Assembly (NCBI RefSeq): GCF_003149455.1 | Contig: NZ_QFFK01000006.1 | Location: forward strand, 253,136-317,135 | Direction: 5' to 3' | Source: Chitinophaga deserti | Lineage (GTDB): Bacteria > Bacteroidota > Bacteroidia > Chitinophagales > Chitinophagaceae | Length of the DNA: 64,000 bases | Shown here: in pieces, positions 16,168-22,508 of the stretch | Layout of the letters: each line of letters begins with the position of its first letter | How positions within the stretch are numbered: position 1 is the stretch's first letter | Notes under the pieces: generated by a model | The model's input: the letters and a program-made list of their open reading frames with translations, nothing else | Told to the model about the DNA's origin: nothing | Databases searched by the model: none | Position numbers and translations under genes: made by a program

Positions 16168-16707
16168 TTAGCGTACAGCCATACCCAGTGCCAGGGGCAA
16201 TAGCATTTCATACAGGCGATTACCGCATTCTGCCTCGCTCTGCTGGTCTGTCCGGATAATGAGATCCGGGGCCATAGGATGTTCAAAAACGCCGTTAACG
16301 CCGGAAAGGCCATATACCTTGTCTGGATGTCCTTCGGGGAGAAATGCGCGCTTATAAAGCCCTTTTGTGTCCCTCCGGATGAGTTCTTCCAGAGCGCAGT
16401 CTATCTGGATGGTGGCGGCGATGCCGTAAGTCTTGGTGATTTCCCGGCGCACATGGTCGAGGGGGTTAATGGCGCAAATGATAGTGAAGATGCCGTGCCG
16501 GGAAAAACGGCTGGCCAGCCATGCCAGCCTGCGGATGTTTTCGGCCCGGTCTTCCATACTCAGCCCCAGCTCCTTAAATAGGCGGCCCCGGCATTCATCA
16601 CCGTCCAGCACTTCCACAGGGCATCCTGCTGCCCGGAGTTTTTGCTCCGCAAAGCGTGCCAGTGTGGTTTTTCCCGCGCCTGACATTCCGCAAAACTGTA
16701 CGATCAT
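16168..16707 (-). CDS. cysC: Adenylylsulfate (APS) kinase
   Basis: A 179-residue cytoplasmic kinase that phosphorylates adenylylsulfate to PAPS, the sulfate donor for sulfotransferases. The P-loop GMSGAGKTT is at residues 7-15. DGDECRGRL corresponds to the family DGDxxR motif. RRDTKGLYKRA matches the substrate-binding D-x-KGLY signature. The usual SPFR segment is replaced by NPLDHVR. It overlaps the upstream sulfotransferase by ATGA, so the two are translationally coupled. No ATP sulfurylase or APS reductase lies nearby, which points to PAPS supply for sulfation rather than cysteine synthesis. Confidence 0.9.
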   Translation of the reverse strand: MIVQFCGMSGAGKTTLARFAEQKLRAAGCPVEVLDGDECRGRLFKELGLSMEDRAENIRRLAWLASRFSRHGIFTIICAINPLDHVRREITKTYGIAATIQIDCALEELIRRDTKGLYKRAFLPEGHPDKVYGLSGVNGVFEHPMAPDLIIRTDQQSEAECGNRLYEMLLPLALGMAVR

Positions 16708-17483
16708 AACTGAAAAGTTGAAACGTTTTTATATCCATAGGCGCTCATCAGCTCCCAGTCTGTATGCTGATCCACCACCTCAATCAATGCAGGATGCAGG
16801 AGGCTGAGGTACTTTCCGGAGCGGTAGAATCCGCCGTCGAATGTTTCATGATGCGTTTCGGGCGGATGGTGATCCCAGTGGGCGGGAAGCACGATCTTTT
16901 CGGGAGACTGCATGCTTTCTGGCAGAAAAGGGAGGTGCATTTTACCGCAGATGTTGGCCACCGTTTCCCGGGGGCAGGCAAGCAGGTGCTCATACCGTAC
17001 GATCATGGTTTGTTCAGGCATTTCCTCCCTAAGCCGGTACCAGGCTGCATATTTGCGGTTAAACTCCTCGCAGGCAGCGGTCAGTATCGTCTGGAAAAGG
17101 CTTAGCCGCTGCGGCTTTACATCCCGGGAATCTGCACATCCATGCTGTTTCATCATACTGAATGCCCAGGCATACGGGTTCTTAACGGAGATGCAGTAAT
17201 ACACTTCCCGCCGTTGCAGGGCTTCCGCGAGCGCGGTGGATAATTCTTCGGTAAATACCTGTTGCCGGTTGTCATCTGCACGGGTAGTGGCAGCGGCATG
17301 GCGGATGGTCAGCTCCCAGGGTGAGGCTGCATCACCGGCGAAGAGGGCCCGGGGAGGGGCTTCGTGCTTATCGCCGAGGATATGCATCAGCACCTGTGCC
17401 TGCGGACAGGCCGTGGTCAGCAATGCGCGCAGGTAATTGGTGCCTGTGCGCTTTTCACCGTACTGCTTAATGAATGTTTGCAT
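16704..17483 (-). CDS. Sulfotransferase family protein
   Basis: A 259-residue protein with the layout of PAPS-dependent sulfotransferases. Near the N-terminus YGEKRTGTNYLRALL matches the 5'-phosphosulfate-binding loop. YYCISVKNPYAWAFSM matches the 3'-phosphate-binding segment, where other members have RDPR..S. MIVRYEHLLACP is the conserved strand before the second half. No signal peptide or membrane segment is evident. It overlaps the glycosyltransferase upstream by 17 bases and the APS kinase downstream by 4, a tight unit that supplies its own donor. The acceptor is probably a glycan or glycoconjugate made by the neighbouring enzyme. Confidence 0.8.
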   Translation of the reverse strand: MQTFIKQYGEKRTGTNYLRALLTTACPQAQVLMHILGDKHEAPPRALFAGDAASPWELTIRHAAATTRADDNRQQVFTEELSTALAEALQRREVYYCISVKNPYAWAFSMMKQHGCADSRDVKPQRLSLFQTILTAACEEFNRKYAAWYRLREEMPEQTMIVRYEHLLACPRETVANICGKMHLPFLPESMQSPEKIVLPAHWDHHPPETHHETFDGGFYRSGKYLSLLHPALIEVVDQHTDWELMSAYGYKNVSTFQL

Positions 17484-18681
17484 GATCGGTTAATAAGATT
17501 TGTTCAAAATGCTGTTCCCACATATTGGCAATGCTTTCCTGCGACCAGGCATCCTGTGTGGCGTTCCGGATACCAGCCTGCAGCAGGTGATGGTAATGAC
17601 CGCTGTCTTCATACAGCCGTTCCAGTTGCGCTGCTATGCCATTAGGTTCCACGAGCCCGCCGGTAAGCCATCCGTTGCCATATGTATGAGGTTTGGCGGG
17701 TATGAGAGCGGCAGATCCTTTCCATAATTCCGAACAGGCAGTATGGTCGGGCACTATCTGTGGTGCGCCGGTTGCGGCATGTTCCATGCTTACCAGTCCC
17801 CAGCCTTCGCCCATGGCGGTATTGATCCCTACATCACAGGCGTTGTATAGAAGGTTCAGTTTTTCGGTAGGCCAGTGCGGATGATTACGGCCCGGATCTG
17901 TAAGCACCAGCCTGCCGGATATACCCAGCAGCCGTGCCTGCTGCTCCACTTCGGTTTCCAGACCCTTTGTGGCCATATGCAGGCAAAGCCGTACGTTCTC
18001 AGGTTTGTTACGGGCAAAAGCTGCAAAGCCCCGCAGTGTGAGATCGATGCGTTTGCGGTGTTGGTTCTTGTTGGCATTAAGTACCCAGAAGCCCCTGCGC
18101 AGGTCATCCTGCCCCGGAAAGAGGGCTTCCCGGGCAGCGATCCTGCGGCCGGCGGTAGTACCGGGTAATGGATAAAAGCGCCCGCCATCGAGGGGATGGG
18201 GGATCACTGCCATGTTGCGGAAAGGCTGCCGGCGCGAGAGGCCCAGTTGTGTGGCACAGTCTTTCAGCACGCGCTTCCCGAAATTGGTAAAGGCCACTAT
18301 GGAATCGAGCTGTGCCAGGCCTTTGGCAAAATCAGCATGGTTGAGTCCGCCATCTACCGGGATGTACCCTGCAACATGGCAGCGGTGCGCTGCCTGCCGG
18401 ATGGCGGTAGTGTATCTGCCTGCGAACCAGATGTCGCAATAGAGAAGGATGGCGTCGGGCTGCAATTGGTCTATAAGGCCCGGCAGCACGGATTCCCCGA
18501 ATACATCGTTGGGGTGTGGGTTGTAGTGTAATGTGAATGTGCCTTTGAATGGTTCTTTACTGAATGCGTCTACACCCAGCACATGAACATCGTGCCGGGT
18601 GGAAAGCCCGCGGGCTATTAGTTGTGTGATGCGGGCCATGCCTGTTTGCTGTGCAAATTGCCCTATAAGTAAGAGTTTCAT
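17467..18681 (-). CDS. Glycosyltransferase, GT4-like
   Basis: A 404-residue GT-B fold enzyme. The N-terminal domain opens MKLLLIGQFAQQTGMARIT. The C-terminal domain shows FWVLNANKNQHRKRIDLTL, LVLTDPGRNHPHWP, and LLYNACDVGINTAMGEGWGLVSMEHAATGAP, the last with the E-x7-E donor-binding pattern of GT4 enzymes. It is cytoplasmic. It overlaps the sulfotransferase gene downstream and lies 78 bases from the MACPF gene upstream. Donor and acceptor sugars are unknown; the context suggests building a sulfated glycan. Confidence 0.88.
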   Translation of the reverse strand: MKLLLIGQFAQQTGMARITQLIARGLSTRHDVHVLGVDAFSKEPFKGTFTLHYNPHPNDVFGESVLPGLIDQLQPDAILLYCDIWFAGRYTTAIRQAAHRCHVAGYIPVDGGLNHADFAKGLAQLDSIVAFTNFGKRVLKDCATQLGLSRRQPFRNMAVIPHPLDGGRFYPLPGTTAGRRIAAREALFPGQDDLRRGFWVLNANKNQHRKRIDLTLRGFAAFARNKPENVRLCLHMATKGLETEVEQQARLLGISGRLVLTDPGRNHPHWPTEKLNLLYNACDVGINTAMGEGWGLVSMEHAATGAPQIVPDHTACSELWKGSAALIPAKPHTYGNGWLTGGLVEPNGIAAQLERLYEDSGHYHHLLQAGIRNATQDAWSQESIANMWEQHFEQILLTDHANIH

Positions 18682-18705
18682 GCGCGTCTTCCGGTTCTTT
18701 TAGGA

Positions 18706-18734
18706 GCGGCGGCAGGGAGTACCCTGGCCGCCGC
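18706..18734 (-). terminator. Strong hairpin between MACPF and glycosyltransferase genes
   Basis: GCGGCGGC-AGGG and CCCT-GGCCGCCGC can form a long G/C-rich stem, but no T run follows on the minus strand. It may stabilise or attenuate the message rather than terminate it. Confidence 0.4.
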
Positions 18735-18759
18735 GTTGATATGCTGTCTGATAACGGTG

Positions 18760-20286
18760 CTATCCTTTGTCCTGCAATTCCTTTTGTTGCTGTGTGGTCA
18801 CAATCGGATCATACAGGAGTATTTCCGATTCTGCATTGATGCTGCCAACGAGCCATGGACTGTCCATCCAGTCGGTAGTCATAGCAAAGCTTTCGCTTGC
18901 TTTACCCGGCATGAGCCCTTTCATTCCGATGCAGGTGTAGCTGACCATACCCGGAGAACCCGTAAACCCGATGTACTGTTTCCAGCCGCTGAGGGAGGCG
19001 CCGCAGGTATAGAGCCAGTTGGCGAAATCTGCGGTGGGGTAGTTCATGAGGTTCACCGCGAATGCGGATACCACGCAGATGTAGTTCCCCTGTCCGTATT
19101 GCTGGATATCCTTCAGCATATAGGTGTAAATGAGGGGCTGGTTATTGAAATCGTTGTTGTCCTGGTAATAGATTTTGCACATCTGCACTTCCTGCGTCTG
19201 ACTGTCGAGCAGGGCTACCTGCAGCGCACCTACCGGCCAGCCCTTAGGAGTGGAAGGAGGAATAACTGAGTCGGGGTTGATGACGTTGCTGTTGCAGATC
19301 ATGGTAGCGCCGGTTGTGAAGTTGCTGCCGTTTTGCCCGGTGCCGGGAGTGAAATTGGCATTTGCCTGAGCAATGATAGCACCGTTCATGTAAGCAACGA
19401 GGGCCTCCTGTACTGCATCTGCGGTTGCGCCGGTAAAGAGTGTGGAAAGCGGGCGCAGGGTGAACTGCATAACGGCAGGATTGGTATTCACGGAAGTGGA
19501 CCATTTGGTGTACAGGCTGCTGTAATCGTCACCGAATCCAGGGTTCAGGATGTTTAGGATACTGGCGTCCCCACCGGTACAGGCAATAGTCACAATGCGG
19601 CTGTTGGCCCATGTTTGTCCCAGTTGATTCCATTCTGCTTCGGAGGTGGCTTTGGCGGAAGTGAACAGTGCTTTATACTCCATGGAAGCATTGGCACTGA
19701 TTTCCTGCTCGTTGCTGCTGTAGGATCTTTCCACCGCTTCGTAGTAGTTCATGTTGCCGCCGCAGATCACCTGCGATACGTAGTGTGTACCAAATTTGCG
19801 GAATACACGGAAGAAATCTTCCTTGTTGTCGTTGTTGTACACGCTGGGGAGCGTATCTACAGACGGGTCTTGCGAGAATCCGGGAGAAAGCCACTGGACG
19901 CCCGTGTCTTCCAGTACAAGATCCCAGCAATTGAAGGATGCTTCCGTCATGCAGTACCAGTAACTGGTGTTGGAGTTGAAGGTGTTGGCATAGGCTGCGT
20001 CAAACTGGCCCTTGAAAGCCCCGTATGAGCCACTGACGCCTGCTTTGGCAGAGAAGAAATTCTGGAATTGTTCGGCACCTTCAAATACTTCCGTAGTGCC
20101 ATACACGTTGGAGTTAGGCACTACCGCGAGATTGTCGGGCACTTCATACGTGATGCCGGCAAATGTGTATTCCGATGCATCATTTGTTTTGTGTATGAAA
20201 AGCTGTGAGGTGAGCGAAGAAATGTCGTATTCGCCCAGAATGTTAAAGCCGAATCCTACTACGTCGGCTCCTGGAATGATGTTCAT
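18760..20286 (-). CDS. MACPF (membrane attack complex/perforin) domain protein
   Basis: A 508-residue pore-forming family protein. It begins IPGADVVGFGFNILGEY, like other bacterial MACPF proteins. It carries the family signature near residue 190, FRKFGTHYVSQVICGG, matching (Y/F)GTH(Y/F)-x6-GG. Flanking regions would be the helical clusters that become membrane hairpins. The C-terminal 170 residues (from about GWPVGALQVALLD) form a separate unrecognised domain rich in aromatic residues. No signal peptide is present, so it stays in the cytoplasm or leaves by an unclassified route. An unusually good ribosome binding site precedes it. It follows two trypsin-like genes by 39 bases, suggesting joint action. 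Confidence 0.9.
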   Translation of the reverse strand: MNIIPGADVVGFGFNILGEYDISSLTSQLFIHKTNDASEYTFAGITYEVPDNLAVVPNSNVYGTTEVFEGAEQFQNFFSAKAGVSGSYGAFKGQFDAAYANTFNSNTSYWYCMTEASFNCWDLVLEDTGVQWLSPGFSQDPSVDTLPSVYNNDNKEDFFRVFRKFGTHYVSQVICGGNMNYYEAVERSYSSNEQEISANASMEYKALFTSAKATSEAEWNQLGQTWANSRIVTIACTGGDASILNILNPGFGDDYSSLYTKWSTSVNTNPAVMQFTLRPLSTLFTGATADAVQEALVAYMNGAIIAQANANFTPGTGQNGSNFTTGATMICNSNVINPDSVIPPSTPKGWPVGALQVALLDSQTQEVQMCKIYYQDNNDFNNQPLIYTYMLKDIQQYGQGNYICVVSAFAVNLMNYPTADFANWLYTCGASLSGWKQYIGFTGSPGMVSYTCIGMKGLMPGKASESFAMTTDWMDSPWLVGSINAESEILLYDPIVTTQQQKELQDKG

Positions 20287-20292
20287 GATAAA

Positions 20293-20299
20293 CCTCCTT
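20293..20299 (-). promoter_or_regulatory. Strong Shine-Dalgarno site of the MACPF gene
   Basis: On the minus strand AAGGAGG sits six bases before the ATG. Such a full match is uncommon in Bacteroidota, whose genes mostly lack one, and suggests high translation of the pore-forming protein. Confidence 0.7.
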
Positions 20300-20325
20300 G
20301 GGTTTTAGGGTGAGAGATAGGATGA

Positions 20326-21291
20326 TTAATGAATCAGTTGGGTGGGAATCAGGCAGGCCATAGCTCCGAAAACATTTGTAGCGGTCAGAATACCTACCAT
20401 CTGTAATTGATTGTTGACGAGGATTGATCCGGAATCGCCCGGGAGGGGAGCAAAGTTGTCCCCATTCAGCCAGATGGCATCCTGAAACCACGCATATTGT
20501 CCCATTATGCGCATGACGCCCTGGTAATGAACCGATACTATGGAGGTGTGCATCACTTCATCTGTAGTGGCACCGTAGCATGATACCTGCATGTTTGCAG
20601 CCGGAGCAGCAAAGCCCACCGGCGTTCCGATACCATTAATGGCCGGAGAGCATACAAGGGGCGTGGTATTGCACCAGGCCAGATCGGTGGTGTTGTAAAT
20701 CGGGTTGAACTGGTTGGAGTTCGGATACGTGATCAGGTTAATAAACCCTGATACATCACAGAGGTAATTCTGCTGCTGGCTTACGTCGGGCTGATAGATG
20801 CGTGTATACTGCCCGTTGTAAGACAATACGTGGTTGTTGGATAACATCCGGTATTGCCCGTTGATGTTGAAGCTTGCACCCAGCGTACCTGCCATGTTGA
20901 TGCCCTGAGGCTGCACCTGCTGGCCTCCCGGGGCAGGGCGGATACGATCCCAGGATGCCATGGGCTCCGGTTTGGCAACAGGCTCCGCATCATCGCGGAA
21001 GGGGCCCACTTCCTGCACATCCGTAGGTACTTTAACCATTACAGGTTTACCTCCGTTCTGTGCGATGGGCAGCTCCAGGAATGGAGGAATAGCTTCATCA
21101 CCATCCAGCGCAATCCTGTCTGCCGATTTCTTGTGCTGTACGTGAAAAACGACAGAACATTGATCGGTTTTGTGCCCGTTCTTACGTTTTGGGCCGGCAT
21201 ACATACCAACGATGTTACCGCGAAGCCAGCCGCGCAGGGCAGACATGTGAGGCTCAATGTCCGTCTGCTCAATTTGCTTTGTGAGTTGCAT
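20326..21291 (-). CDS. Trypsin-like serine protease homologue (copy B)
   Basis: A 321-residue protein with chymotrypsin-fold triad signatures: MLSNNHVLSYNG (His, near residue 155), NTTDLAWCN (Asp, near 205), and LPGDSGSILVNN (Ser, near 295). The N-terminal 110 residues (from MQLTKQIEQTDIEPHMSALRGWLRGN) form a shared extra domain ending in a proline-rich linker. No signal peptide is seen, unusual for this fold. It is about half identical by eye to the copy 75 bases upstream. It probably acts as a peptidase; a natural target could be the neighbouring MACPF protein. Confidence 0.8.
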   Translation of the reverse strand: MQLTKQIEQTDIEPHMSALRGWLRGNIVGMYAGPKRKNGHKTDQCSVVFHVQHKKSADRIALDGDEAIPPFLELPIAQNGGKPVMVKVPTDVQEVGPFRDDAEPVAKPEPMASWDRIRPAPGGQQVQPQGINMAGTLGASFNINGQYRMLSNNHVLSYNGQYTRIYQPDVSQQQNYLCDVSGFINLITYPNSNQFNPIYNTTDLAWCNTTPLVCSPAINGIGTPVGFAAPAANMQVSCYGATTDEVMHTSIVSVHYQGVMRIMGQYAWFQDAIWLNGDNFAPLPGDSGSILVNNQLQMVGILTATNVFGAMACLIPTQLIH

Positions 21292-21366
21292 AAAAGAGAG
21301 TTTAGGTTTTCGAGAATAGCTGACGGTTCTTGCTATAGGATTTCTTAATACCGAAGGATAGATCGC

Positions 21367-22326
21367 TTATTGAATTAATTGTGTGGGGATAAGGCAGCCC
21401 CATGGGCCGGCAATCGCGTTCCAGCCTGCAAGGATGCCAACGATCTGCATGTTGTTGTTGATCAGCAATGCCCCGGAATCGCCCGCCAGCGGGAAGAAGT
21501 CTTCCCCTTCCAGCAAAAGGCAGTTCTGGAACCAGGCATATTGATTATTGAGCATCATTGAGATGGTGCGGAATTGGATGGATTCAATAGTGGCCTGGAT
21601 AACCTCATCGGTAGAGGCGCCGAAGCATCTTACCTGCATGTTTACCGCCGGAGCAGCAAAGCCCACCGGCACCCCGATACCCTGTATTTGCGGCGCACAT
21701 TGTTCCTGGGTTACATTGCACCATGCCAGATCTGTCTGGTTATAAACCGGGTTTTGCTGGTTGGAGGTGGGATAAGTAACCATGTTCACAAATCCCGATA
21801 CATCTGCCAGCGCGTTTTGAGGGTCCCGGGCATCGGGCTGGAAAATATGGGTGAATTGTCCGTTCCAAGACAAGATGTGGTTGTTGGATAGCATCCTGTA
21901 CTGGTTATTGATGGTAATGCTGCCACCCAGGGTTCCCACCAGCGGGCACCCTTGTGCCTGTATCTGGTAACCGCCGGGAGCAGGGCGCACCCGGTCTGTA
22001 GAAACCATTGGCTGCGGCATCTGCTTAGTCACAAATGCGCCTACTTCTACGACATCCGTCGGTACTTTGACCATTTCCGTTTTCCCGCCGGATATTGAAA
22101 TGGGAAGCTCGAAATAAGGAGGAATGGGTGTATCACCATCTAACGCCAGCCTGTCGGGCGACTTCTTCTGCTGCACATGCATCACTATCGCCCATTGTTC
22201 AGTTTTCTTACCATTTTTCCTTTTACGGCCGGCATACATACCTGTGATGTTGTTGCGTAGCCATCCCTGAAGGGCAGACATATGGGGTTCAATGTCTGTC
22301 TGCCGGATCTTTTGGGTGAGTTCCAT
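21367..22326 (-). CDS. Trypsin-like serine protease homologue (copy A)
   Basis: A 319-residue paralogue of the next gene with the same plan: an N-terminal domain beginning MELTQKIRQTDIEPHMSALQ, then the triad signatures MLSNNHILSWNG, NQTDLAWCN and LAGDSGALLINN. The start at MELTQK aligns with the paralogue; a 20-codon upstream extension was rejected. No signal peptide is visible. It is first in the run of six same-strand genes, after the pyrophosphatase terminator. The two copies arose by tandem duplication that included the leader, since a block TGACGGTTCTT lies upstream of both. Confidence 0.8.
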   Translation of the reverse strand: MELTQKIRQTDIEPHMSALQGWLRNNITGMYAGRKRKNGKKTEQWAIVMHVQQKKSPDRLALDGDTPIPPYFELPISISGGKTEMVKVPTDVVEVGAFVTKQMPQPMVSTDRVRPAPGGYQIQAQGCPLVGTLGGSITINNQYRMLSNNHILSWNGQFTHIFQPDARDPQNALADVSGFVNMVTYPTSNQQNPVYNQTDLAWCNVTQEQCAPQIQGIGVPVGFAAPAVNMQVRCFGASTDEVIQATIESIQFRTISMMLNNQYAWFQNCLLLEGEDFFPLAGDSGALLINNNMQIVGILAGWNAIAGPWGCLIPTQLIQ

Positions 22327-22482: not shown

Positions 22483-22508
22483 AAGCCGGTCTCACTGGAG
22501 ACCGGCTT
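22483..22508 (-). terminator. Terminator of hppA
   Basis: AAGCCGGTCTC and GAGACCGGCTT form a perfect 11-bp stem with a 4-base loop, followed on the minus strand by TATTATTTCC. It separates hppA from the protease/MACPF cluster. Confidence 0.85.

Follow-up and report, generated by a model that had tools for sequence, protein, structure and literature searches.

What could be made by an island that places the gene of a pore-former-like protein among those of two proteases, a glycosyltransferase (GT), a sulfotransferase (ST), and an adenosine 5'-phosphosulfate (APS) kinase? The question is raised by six open reading frames (ORFs) of Chitinophaga deserti, all on the minus strand, which occupy the block 16168-22326 of a 64,000-nucleotide stretch of contig NZ_QFFK01000006.1 (the window). 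The position was verified, and the coordinates agreed exactly with the arrangement given in the original prediction, with intergenic gaps of 75, 39, and 78 bases and overlaps of 17 and 4 bases, which join the GT gene to the ST gene and the ST gene to the APS kinase gene. That prediction had placed the proteases at the center, as the gate of a MACPF pore. We found instead that the recurrent core is the C-terminal domain (CTD) of the MACPF protein together with the GT, that this core occurs once on a conjugative plasmid, and that the CTD also stands alone with the same GT family. Our preferred explanation, held tentatively and at somewhat less than an even chance, is that the island encodes a MACPF pore-former and the enzymes which decorate it with sugar and sulfate, the chemistry, release, and target being presumed.

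The MACPF protein matched PF01823 with 69.4 bits (cut-off 21.5) and carries the previously noted GTHY-x6-GG at residues 166-177 (G166-T-H-Y-x6-G176-G177). The pattern GT-H-[FY]-x6-GG is the MACPF/perforin signature. By domain score and signature, the protein is placed in the MACPF/perforin family, and pore formation is predicted. Its nearest solved relatives were GNIP1Aa (6fbm), Mpf2Ba1 (8b6u/8b6v), and 2qp2, to which the alignment covered approximately residues 3-301, stopping near residue 300. The GT matched PF13692 with 33.6 bits (cut-off 27), and its E292 and E300 were invariant in all 11 aligned GTs; E-x7-E is the motif of retaining GT4 enzymes. At E ≤ 1e-8, the sole PDB match of the GT profile was chlorovirus B736L (E 1e-28, full length).

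To follow these proteins beyond the genus, sequence and profile searches were examined. The MACPF protein gave two matches among 294 genomes of the family (its own genome and G122), and the MACPF profile gave two among 395 genomes of the phylum at E ≤ 1e-15 (its own genome and G388). The GT profile gave eight matches among 396 genomes of the order at E ≤ 1e-50, two of them in the genus, and a wider GT profile, which already included the G388 and G427 rows, gave three among 390 genomes of the phylum at E ≤ 1e-60 (its own genome, G388, and G427). Among 72,556 plasmid records, one GT match (E ≤ 1e-20) and one MACPF match (E ≤ 1e-3) were obtained, and the two adjoin each other on one plasmid, the conjugative plasmid NZ_CP045303.1 of Azotobacter salinestris. 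Nine GT loci outside the genus were examined (G122, G388, G985, the Azotobacter plasmid, G863, G427, G126, G962, and G917). The MACPF-CTD lay beside the GT in the first four, with one small ORF between the genes in G388 and G985. Together with three loci within the genus, the island-type MACPF gene adjoined the GT gene, with at most one small ORF between them, in all seven loci examined. In G863, G427, and G126, a stand-alone CTD-related protein directly adjoined the GT. When 150 ORFs were set against the MACPF-CTD profile, these three proteins ranked highest among the non-MACPF rows (hhalign 94-98%), the remaining rows of the 16 listed reaching at most 10.5%, and a MACPF-only profile also found them among 1397 stop-to-stop ORFs (E 2e-11, 4e-11, and 8e-8). 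G962 carried a CTD candidate at E 3e-5 and a weaker neighbor (hhalign 54% and 42%; next ORFs about 2%). No credible relative of the CTD was found in Pfam (E ≤ 10, 10 members) or in the PDB (profile and sequence searches). A resemblance to the GG/ILEI-like fold was considered; no such Pfam family appeared at E ≤ 10, the PDB gave nothing credible, and the likeness is not claimed.

Further observations concern the surroundings and relatives of these genes. The Azotobacter MACPF-GT pair (L050 3646-14959) lies within a few kilobases of IS6, IS630, and IS5 transposases and a VapC toxin-antitoxin pair. In G122, the ORF after the MACPF-GT pair (L012 508-1080) has caspase-like SHG...SC motifs by eye; Pfam gave no match at E ≤ 10, and the observation was not used. 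GTs with 32-38% identity were common in viral contigs (L060-L139; 182 confirmed relatives, 80 kept), in line with chlorovirus B736L as the nearest solved structure. The 2803 ORFs (≥60 amino acids) of the 80 kept viral loci gave no CTD, MACPF, or protease profile match at E ≤ 0.01; no MACPF or protease relative was confirmed in viral contigs, and no MACPF relative was found in phage records.

Next, we examined the sulfation genes. The ST (PF13469, 34.0 bits; cut-off 27) and the APS kinase (PF01583, 118.8 bits; cut-off 21.1) both exceeded their Pfam cut-offs, in agreement with their earlier assignment as a 3'-phosphoadenosine 5'-phosphosulfate (PAPS)-type ST and the kinase for its donor. In the genome of the window (G000) and in G299, the cluster copy was the only PF01583 match, and G333, where the ST is lost, had none at threshold. 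CysD was found in G000, so that APS can be made there; with the sole APS kinase, the cluster is therefore likely the only PAPS source of this genome. This is consistent with a dedicated ST, whose substrate is predicted. Within the genus, the presence of the ST tracked that of the MACPF protein. The sulfated glycan suggested earlier fits. In G863 and G427, a phosphodiesterase-TPR-sulfotransferase fusion and a phage-tail-collar protein (PF07484) are also encoded at the GT-CTD locus. The ST profile, built from three close sequences, misses the sulfotransferase domains of these fusions, so that a divergent ST is possible in other loci; it was unmatched at E ≤ 1 in all seven remaining outside GT loci.

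The history of the island was traced in 79 genomes of the genus, including the 6.3-Mb G000, with absence claims based on tblastn and on profiles run on all stop-to-stop ORFs. A MACPF domain was present in 15 genomes, and all 21 matches were checked. The island-type MACPF occurred in only three (G000, G326, and G328), and around the 18 other matches, the 1.5 kb covered on each side contained nothing that matched the GT, the CTD, or the protease. The three genomes share the order hppA, protease, MACPF, GT, ST, APS kinase, Rrf2, SDR (an NmrA-like NAD(P)-binding protein), with the Rrf2 match of G328 split into two overlapping pieces. G299 lacks MACPF and ST and retains the protease, the GT, and the APS kinase; G333 has the protease, the GT, and a C-terminal APS kinase remnant (63 positions, 44%), its ST being lost; and G361 has an ST remnant alone (50 residues, 54%) between hppA and Rrf2. 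MACPF and ST were both present in three and both absent in three of the six genomes with any island trace. The island genes had no match in G353, G297, and G345, where hppA, Rrf2, and SDR run consecutively, G353 being only 65% complete with hppA broken into frames. The simplest history suggested by these sequences is one insertion followed by repeated decay. The original prediction was supported in this respect, the genes forming an island which is missing entirely from its site in three relatives and has decayed in others.

The features are collected in Table 1. The hppA terminator predicted at the island edge was found, and by alignment it is present in all five protease-bearing genomes; terminator-like sites in the region numbered eight in total against 7.5 in shuffles, which is chance level. 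The palindrome ACTGTAAT...ATTACAGT lies at 16129-16107, immediately before the Rrf2 gene, and is a candidate for the Rrf2 operator of the original prediction. By Pfam, the flanking genes are hppA (H_PPase), Rrf2, and the NmrA-like gene. In a simple hydropathy check (highest-scoring window of 11 residues within residues 1-45), none of the six island proteins had a strongly hydrophobic start, the MACPF protein being highest at 1.48 compared with 2.85 for the hppA membrane protein, as expected from the earlier claim that the proteases and MACPF lack signal peptides.

Table 1. Positions of the island features in the window and of two related loci in other genomes
Feature	Position	Strand	Remarks
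Protease A	22326-21367	(-)	319 aa, ATG at 22326; predicted trypsin-fold serine protease; NAL1-like as a lead only
Protease B	21291-20326	(-)	321 aa; tandem paralogue of protease A, 63% identical
MACPF pore-former-like protein	20286-18760	(-)	508 aa, without leader peptide
CTD (MACPF C-terminal domain, residues 349-494)	18805..19242	(-)	Homologous stand-alone proteins adjoin the same GT elsewhere
GT4-type glycosyltransferase (GT)	18681-17467	(-)	404 aa; E-x7-E conserved (E292/E300)
PAPS-type sulfotransferase (ST)	17483-16704	(-)	259 aa; PF13469, PF00685
APS kinase	16707-16168	(-)	179 aa; sole PF01583 match in G000
Leader motif AGAACCGTCA...AAACCTAAA	22334..22364	(-)	Before protease A
Second copy of motif AGAACCGTCA...AAACCTAAA	21300..21330	(-)	Before protease B
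hppA terminator (left island border)	22483..22508	(-)	11-pair stem
GT-CTD loci with sulfotransferase fusion	L056 5804-12143 and L057 9692-16525		G863 and G427; two genera, one family

The proteases were examined in the same genomes. Protease B passed the cut-off of Pfam Trypsin (22.8 bits; cut-off 20.6) and protease A just missed it (20.0 bits). The H/D/S motifs reported in both proteins were confirmed, the presumed triad H154, D203, and S287 (protease B numbering) being invariant in all six aligned copies. AlphaFold models were built from 2 and 3 sequences and had predicted local distance difference test (pLDDT) values of 28.2 (MACPF) and 37.4 (protease). In the low-confidence model of protease B, the N-terminal domain best matched rice NAL1 chains, with probability mostly 0.9-1.0, yet at E 0.034 or worse; NAL1 was not found by a profile search of PDB sequences. 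We take the protease sequence to resemble NAL1, with which the model is in line, and use this as a lead only.

A full-length protease relative was found in 5 of the 79 genomes (G000, G326, G328, G333, and G299) and remote partial matches in two further genomes. Two proteases occur in G000 only, the other protease-bearing genomes having one. Between G000 and G326, the other compared genes were 90-99% identical; the one protease of G326 shared only 60% identity with protease A and 68% with protease B, with silent sites saturated, thereby indicating paralogue turnover and not simple descent. Each of the six protease genes compared is preceded by the motif AGAACCGTCA...AAACCTAAA, with a few differences between copies, and the one before protease B was presumably duplicated together with the gene. 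The motif may act as a promoter or as a leader, and it might allow protease B to be expressed separately. Between G333 and G299, both without MACPF and ST, the ratio of nonsynonymous to synonymous substitution rates (dN/dS) was 0.19 for the protease and 0.11 for the GT. Both genes seem to be still working for something in these genomes, an argument which presumes that MACPF was lost before the two diverged, as is suggested by the junction common to both.

Among 274 genomes of the family, the protease profile matched its own genome alone at E ≤ 1e-12. Outside the genus, three MACPF-GT loci could be read (G388, G985, and the Azotobacter plasmid), and none of their ORFs matched it at E ≤ 1; the G122 locus cannot be judged because the contig ends inside the MACPF gene. 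The two proteases look like a local addition, a genus-specific, fast-diverging accessory whose role is probably not tied only to MACPF. More distant relatives were seen in G344 (37%) and G316 (28%), both over part of the protein, and on two plasmids (26-27%); among the ORFs selected at the G344 and G316 loci, none matched MACPF, GT, or ST, and the annotations of the two plasmids name none nearby. On Rhizobium ruizarguesonis plasmid p4 (L052 5312-8861), such a relative (26%) has a radical SAM protein and an HEXXH peptide-modification protein as neighbors, among conjugation genes.

In the preferred explanation, the cytoplasmic GT would add a sugar to the CTD or build a glycan held by the CTD, and the ST would sulfate the CTD glycan using PAPS from the APS kinase. 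The MACPF protein, apparently without a signal peptide, may be released by lysis or another route and would then act as a sulfated cytolysin hitting other cells. In a more general form, which we consider possible but doubtful, the CTD and GT would constitute a portable glycosylation module, its acceptor standing alone or fused to MACPF, with the ST and APS kinase as an extension in the genus that yields a sulfated pore-former. Several observations weigh against a decorated pore-former. The G917 locus, whose GT is remoter (28%), has no CTD match. The CTD was not detected anywhere in the G299 and G333 genomes, where the GT and protease are intact and constrained, so that in these two genomes the GT has to serve another purpose. 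The ST profile was unmatched (E ≤ 1) in the MACPF-GT loci of G388, G985, G122, and Azotobacter, and sulfation is therefore not universal, as far as this narrow profile shows. Finally, the aligned CTD core is invariant only for P, L, G, A, and one Y, so that no acceptor residue is indicated, and the AlphaFold models (pLDDT 28 and 37) were unusable, giving no CTD fold.

The main rival, which we regard as unlikely, is self-protection: the CTD would recognize a surface glycan, and the GT and ST would alter the glycan of the producer, conferring resistance to its own MACPF toxin. Bacteroides offers a precedent, since the available parts of two reports describe BSAP MACPF genes co-acquired with glycosyltransferase genes that change lipopolysaccharide (LPS) (PMC4999547, PMC8264420). 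The constrained GT of G299 and G333, without MACPF or a detectable CTD, resembles orphan immunity after toxin loss, and B736L is discussed, in the part of its description available, as adding sugar to a viral glycan. Self-protection thus explains the survival of this GT better than decoration does, but it explains the GT-CTD pairs without a pore domain (G863, G427, and G126) worse, as these include no toxin needing immunity. In addition, the ST, expected in a mask, was lost along with MACPF instead of being kept, and the island has a single GT and no LPS gene among its immediate neighbors, the only flanks considered, whereas the BSAP-2 locus has several GT genes.

It is improbable, in our judgment, that the island is no single system and has gathered independent functions: a toxin pair of MACPF and GT, a pair for sulfation, and proteases with no connection to either. 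The parts do separate, as protease-GT-APS kinase in G299, protease-GT in G333, and MACPF-GT alone elsewhere, and the GC content is higher in the GT, ST, and APS kinase genes (0.55-0.56) than in the protease and MACPF genes (0.515-0.525). However, the gene order is identical in three genomes, the GT, ST, and APS kinase genes overlap, the whole island is absent in three relatives, and MACPF and ST were lost jointly.

More improbable still is the original idea that pore formation is gated by cleavage of the MACPF protein by the two proteases, for defense, contact toxicity, or predation. The protease gene lies directly upstream of MACPF in all three genus genomes with the island-type MACPF, the presumed triad is intact, and there are parallels in proteolytically activated CDCL toxins (PMC11952106) and in nucleases gated by trypsin-like proteases in defense systems (PMC12799240), as far as the available parts of these sources go. 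The MACPF relative Mpf2Ba1 likewise becomes active once about 25-30 residues are removed from its N-terminus, a cleavage that trypsin is able to perform, and its oligomerization still requires gut fluid, according to the available part of PMC10344926. Residue 3 of the island MACPF, however, is matched in the alignment to residue 31 in chain 8b6u and to residue 2 in chain 8b6v; the island protein begins at the post-cleavage point, and there is therefore no leader to remove at that N-terminal site, although cleavage elsewhere in the protein could occur. The MACPF proteins are 85-92% identical across the three genomes, compared with 56-68% for the proteases, and the proteases are constrained without MACPF. 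The predicted protease-MACPF linkage thus stood within the genus and failed in all three readable loci outside it, and PADLOC gave one weak match only, so that a protease-gated pore was not upheld as the core. The phage-defense version was set aside, as the single PADLOC match was weak (protease B, 12.8 bits, E 0.018), no gasdermin family was among the Pfam matches of the island proteins, and Pfam annotation of the immediate flanks showed no defense genes.

If a decorated pore-former is correct, the island supplies a MACPF protein with its own enzymes for glycosylation and sulfation, and the acceptor domain is one that can be transferred. To our knowledge, no sulfated bacterial pore-forming protein is known so far, and this would be the first. 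If self-protection is correct, the BSAP rule of a toxin with glycan-changing immunity reaches sulfated glycans, soil bacteria, and plasmids. Under either reading, the focus moves from the proteases to the tail domain and the glycosyltransferase. In the literature searched, which covered few subscription papers, there was no published account of the gene set of the island. The presence of MACPF with GT genes is already known from BSAPs; the GT4-CTD module, its MACPF fusion, and the addition of ST and APS kinase were not met in this literature.

Known systems resemble the island in different parts. HMW1C for the HMW1 adhesin and HlyC for HlyA are neighboring enzymes modifying an adhesin or toxin; they belong to enzyme families different from the island GT and ST, and the island modification is predicted. 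GNIP1Aa, Mpf2Ba1, and Photorhabdus 2qp2 have the closest MACPF domains of known structure, but their C-termini, a beta-prism in Mpf2Ba1, are unaligned with the island CTD, and the cleavable inhibitory N-terminal leader described for Mpf2Ba1 in the available part of PMC10344926 is absent from the island MACPF; partner genes went unmentioned in that text. In protease-gated bacterial gasdermins and nucleases, the protease gene adjoins a damaging effector, as in the island (nuclease pairs: PMC12799240, available part); the island effector is a MACPF protein, only one genus showed the linkage to a protease, and no defense context was seen. The CDCLs of Bacteroidota belong to the MACPF/CDC superfamily, are proteolytically activated, and are reported in Chitinophaga, but they form a separate family with C11-type activators, whereas the island proteases have a predicted trypsin fold (PMC11952106, available part). 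Chlorovirus B736L resembles the island GT over its full length; it is viral, with GDP-mannose as the best ligand and the true donor and acceptor unsettled in the part of its description available. The island differs from BSAPs in its one GT4 enzyme, its ST and APS kinase, and a CTD that also exists alone beside the GT. BSAPs carry a signal peptide and are described as secreted, whereas the island MACPF has no strongly hydrophobic N-terminus by the hydropathy check. What the island shares with BSAP-2 and BSAP-3, antimicrobials of Bacteroidales, is a MACPF gene linked to GT genes (PMC4999547, PMC8264420, available parts).

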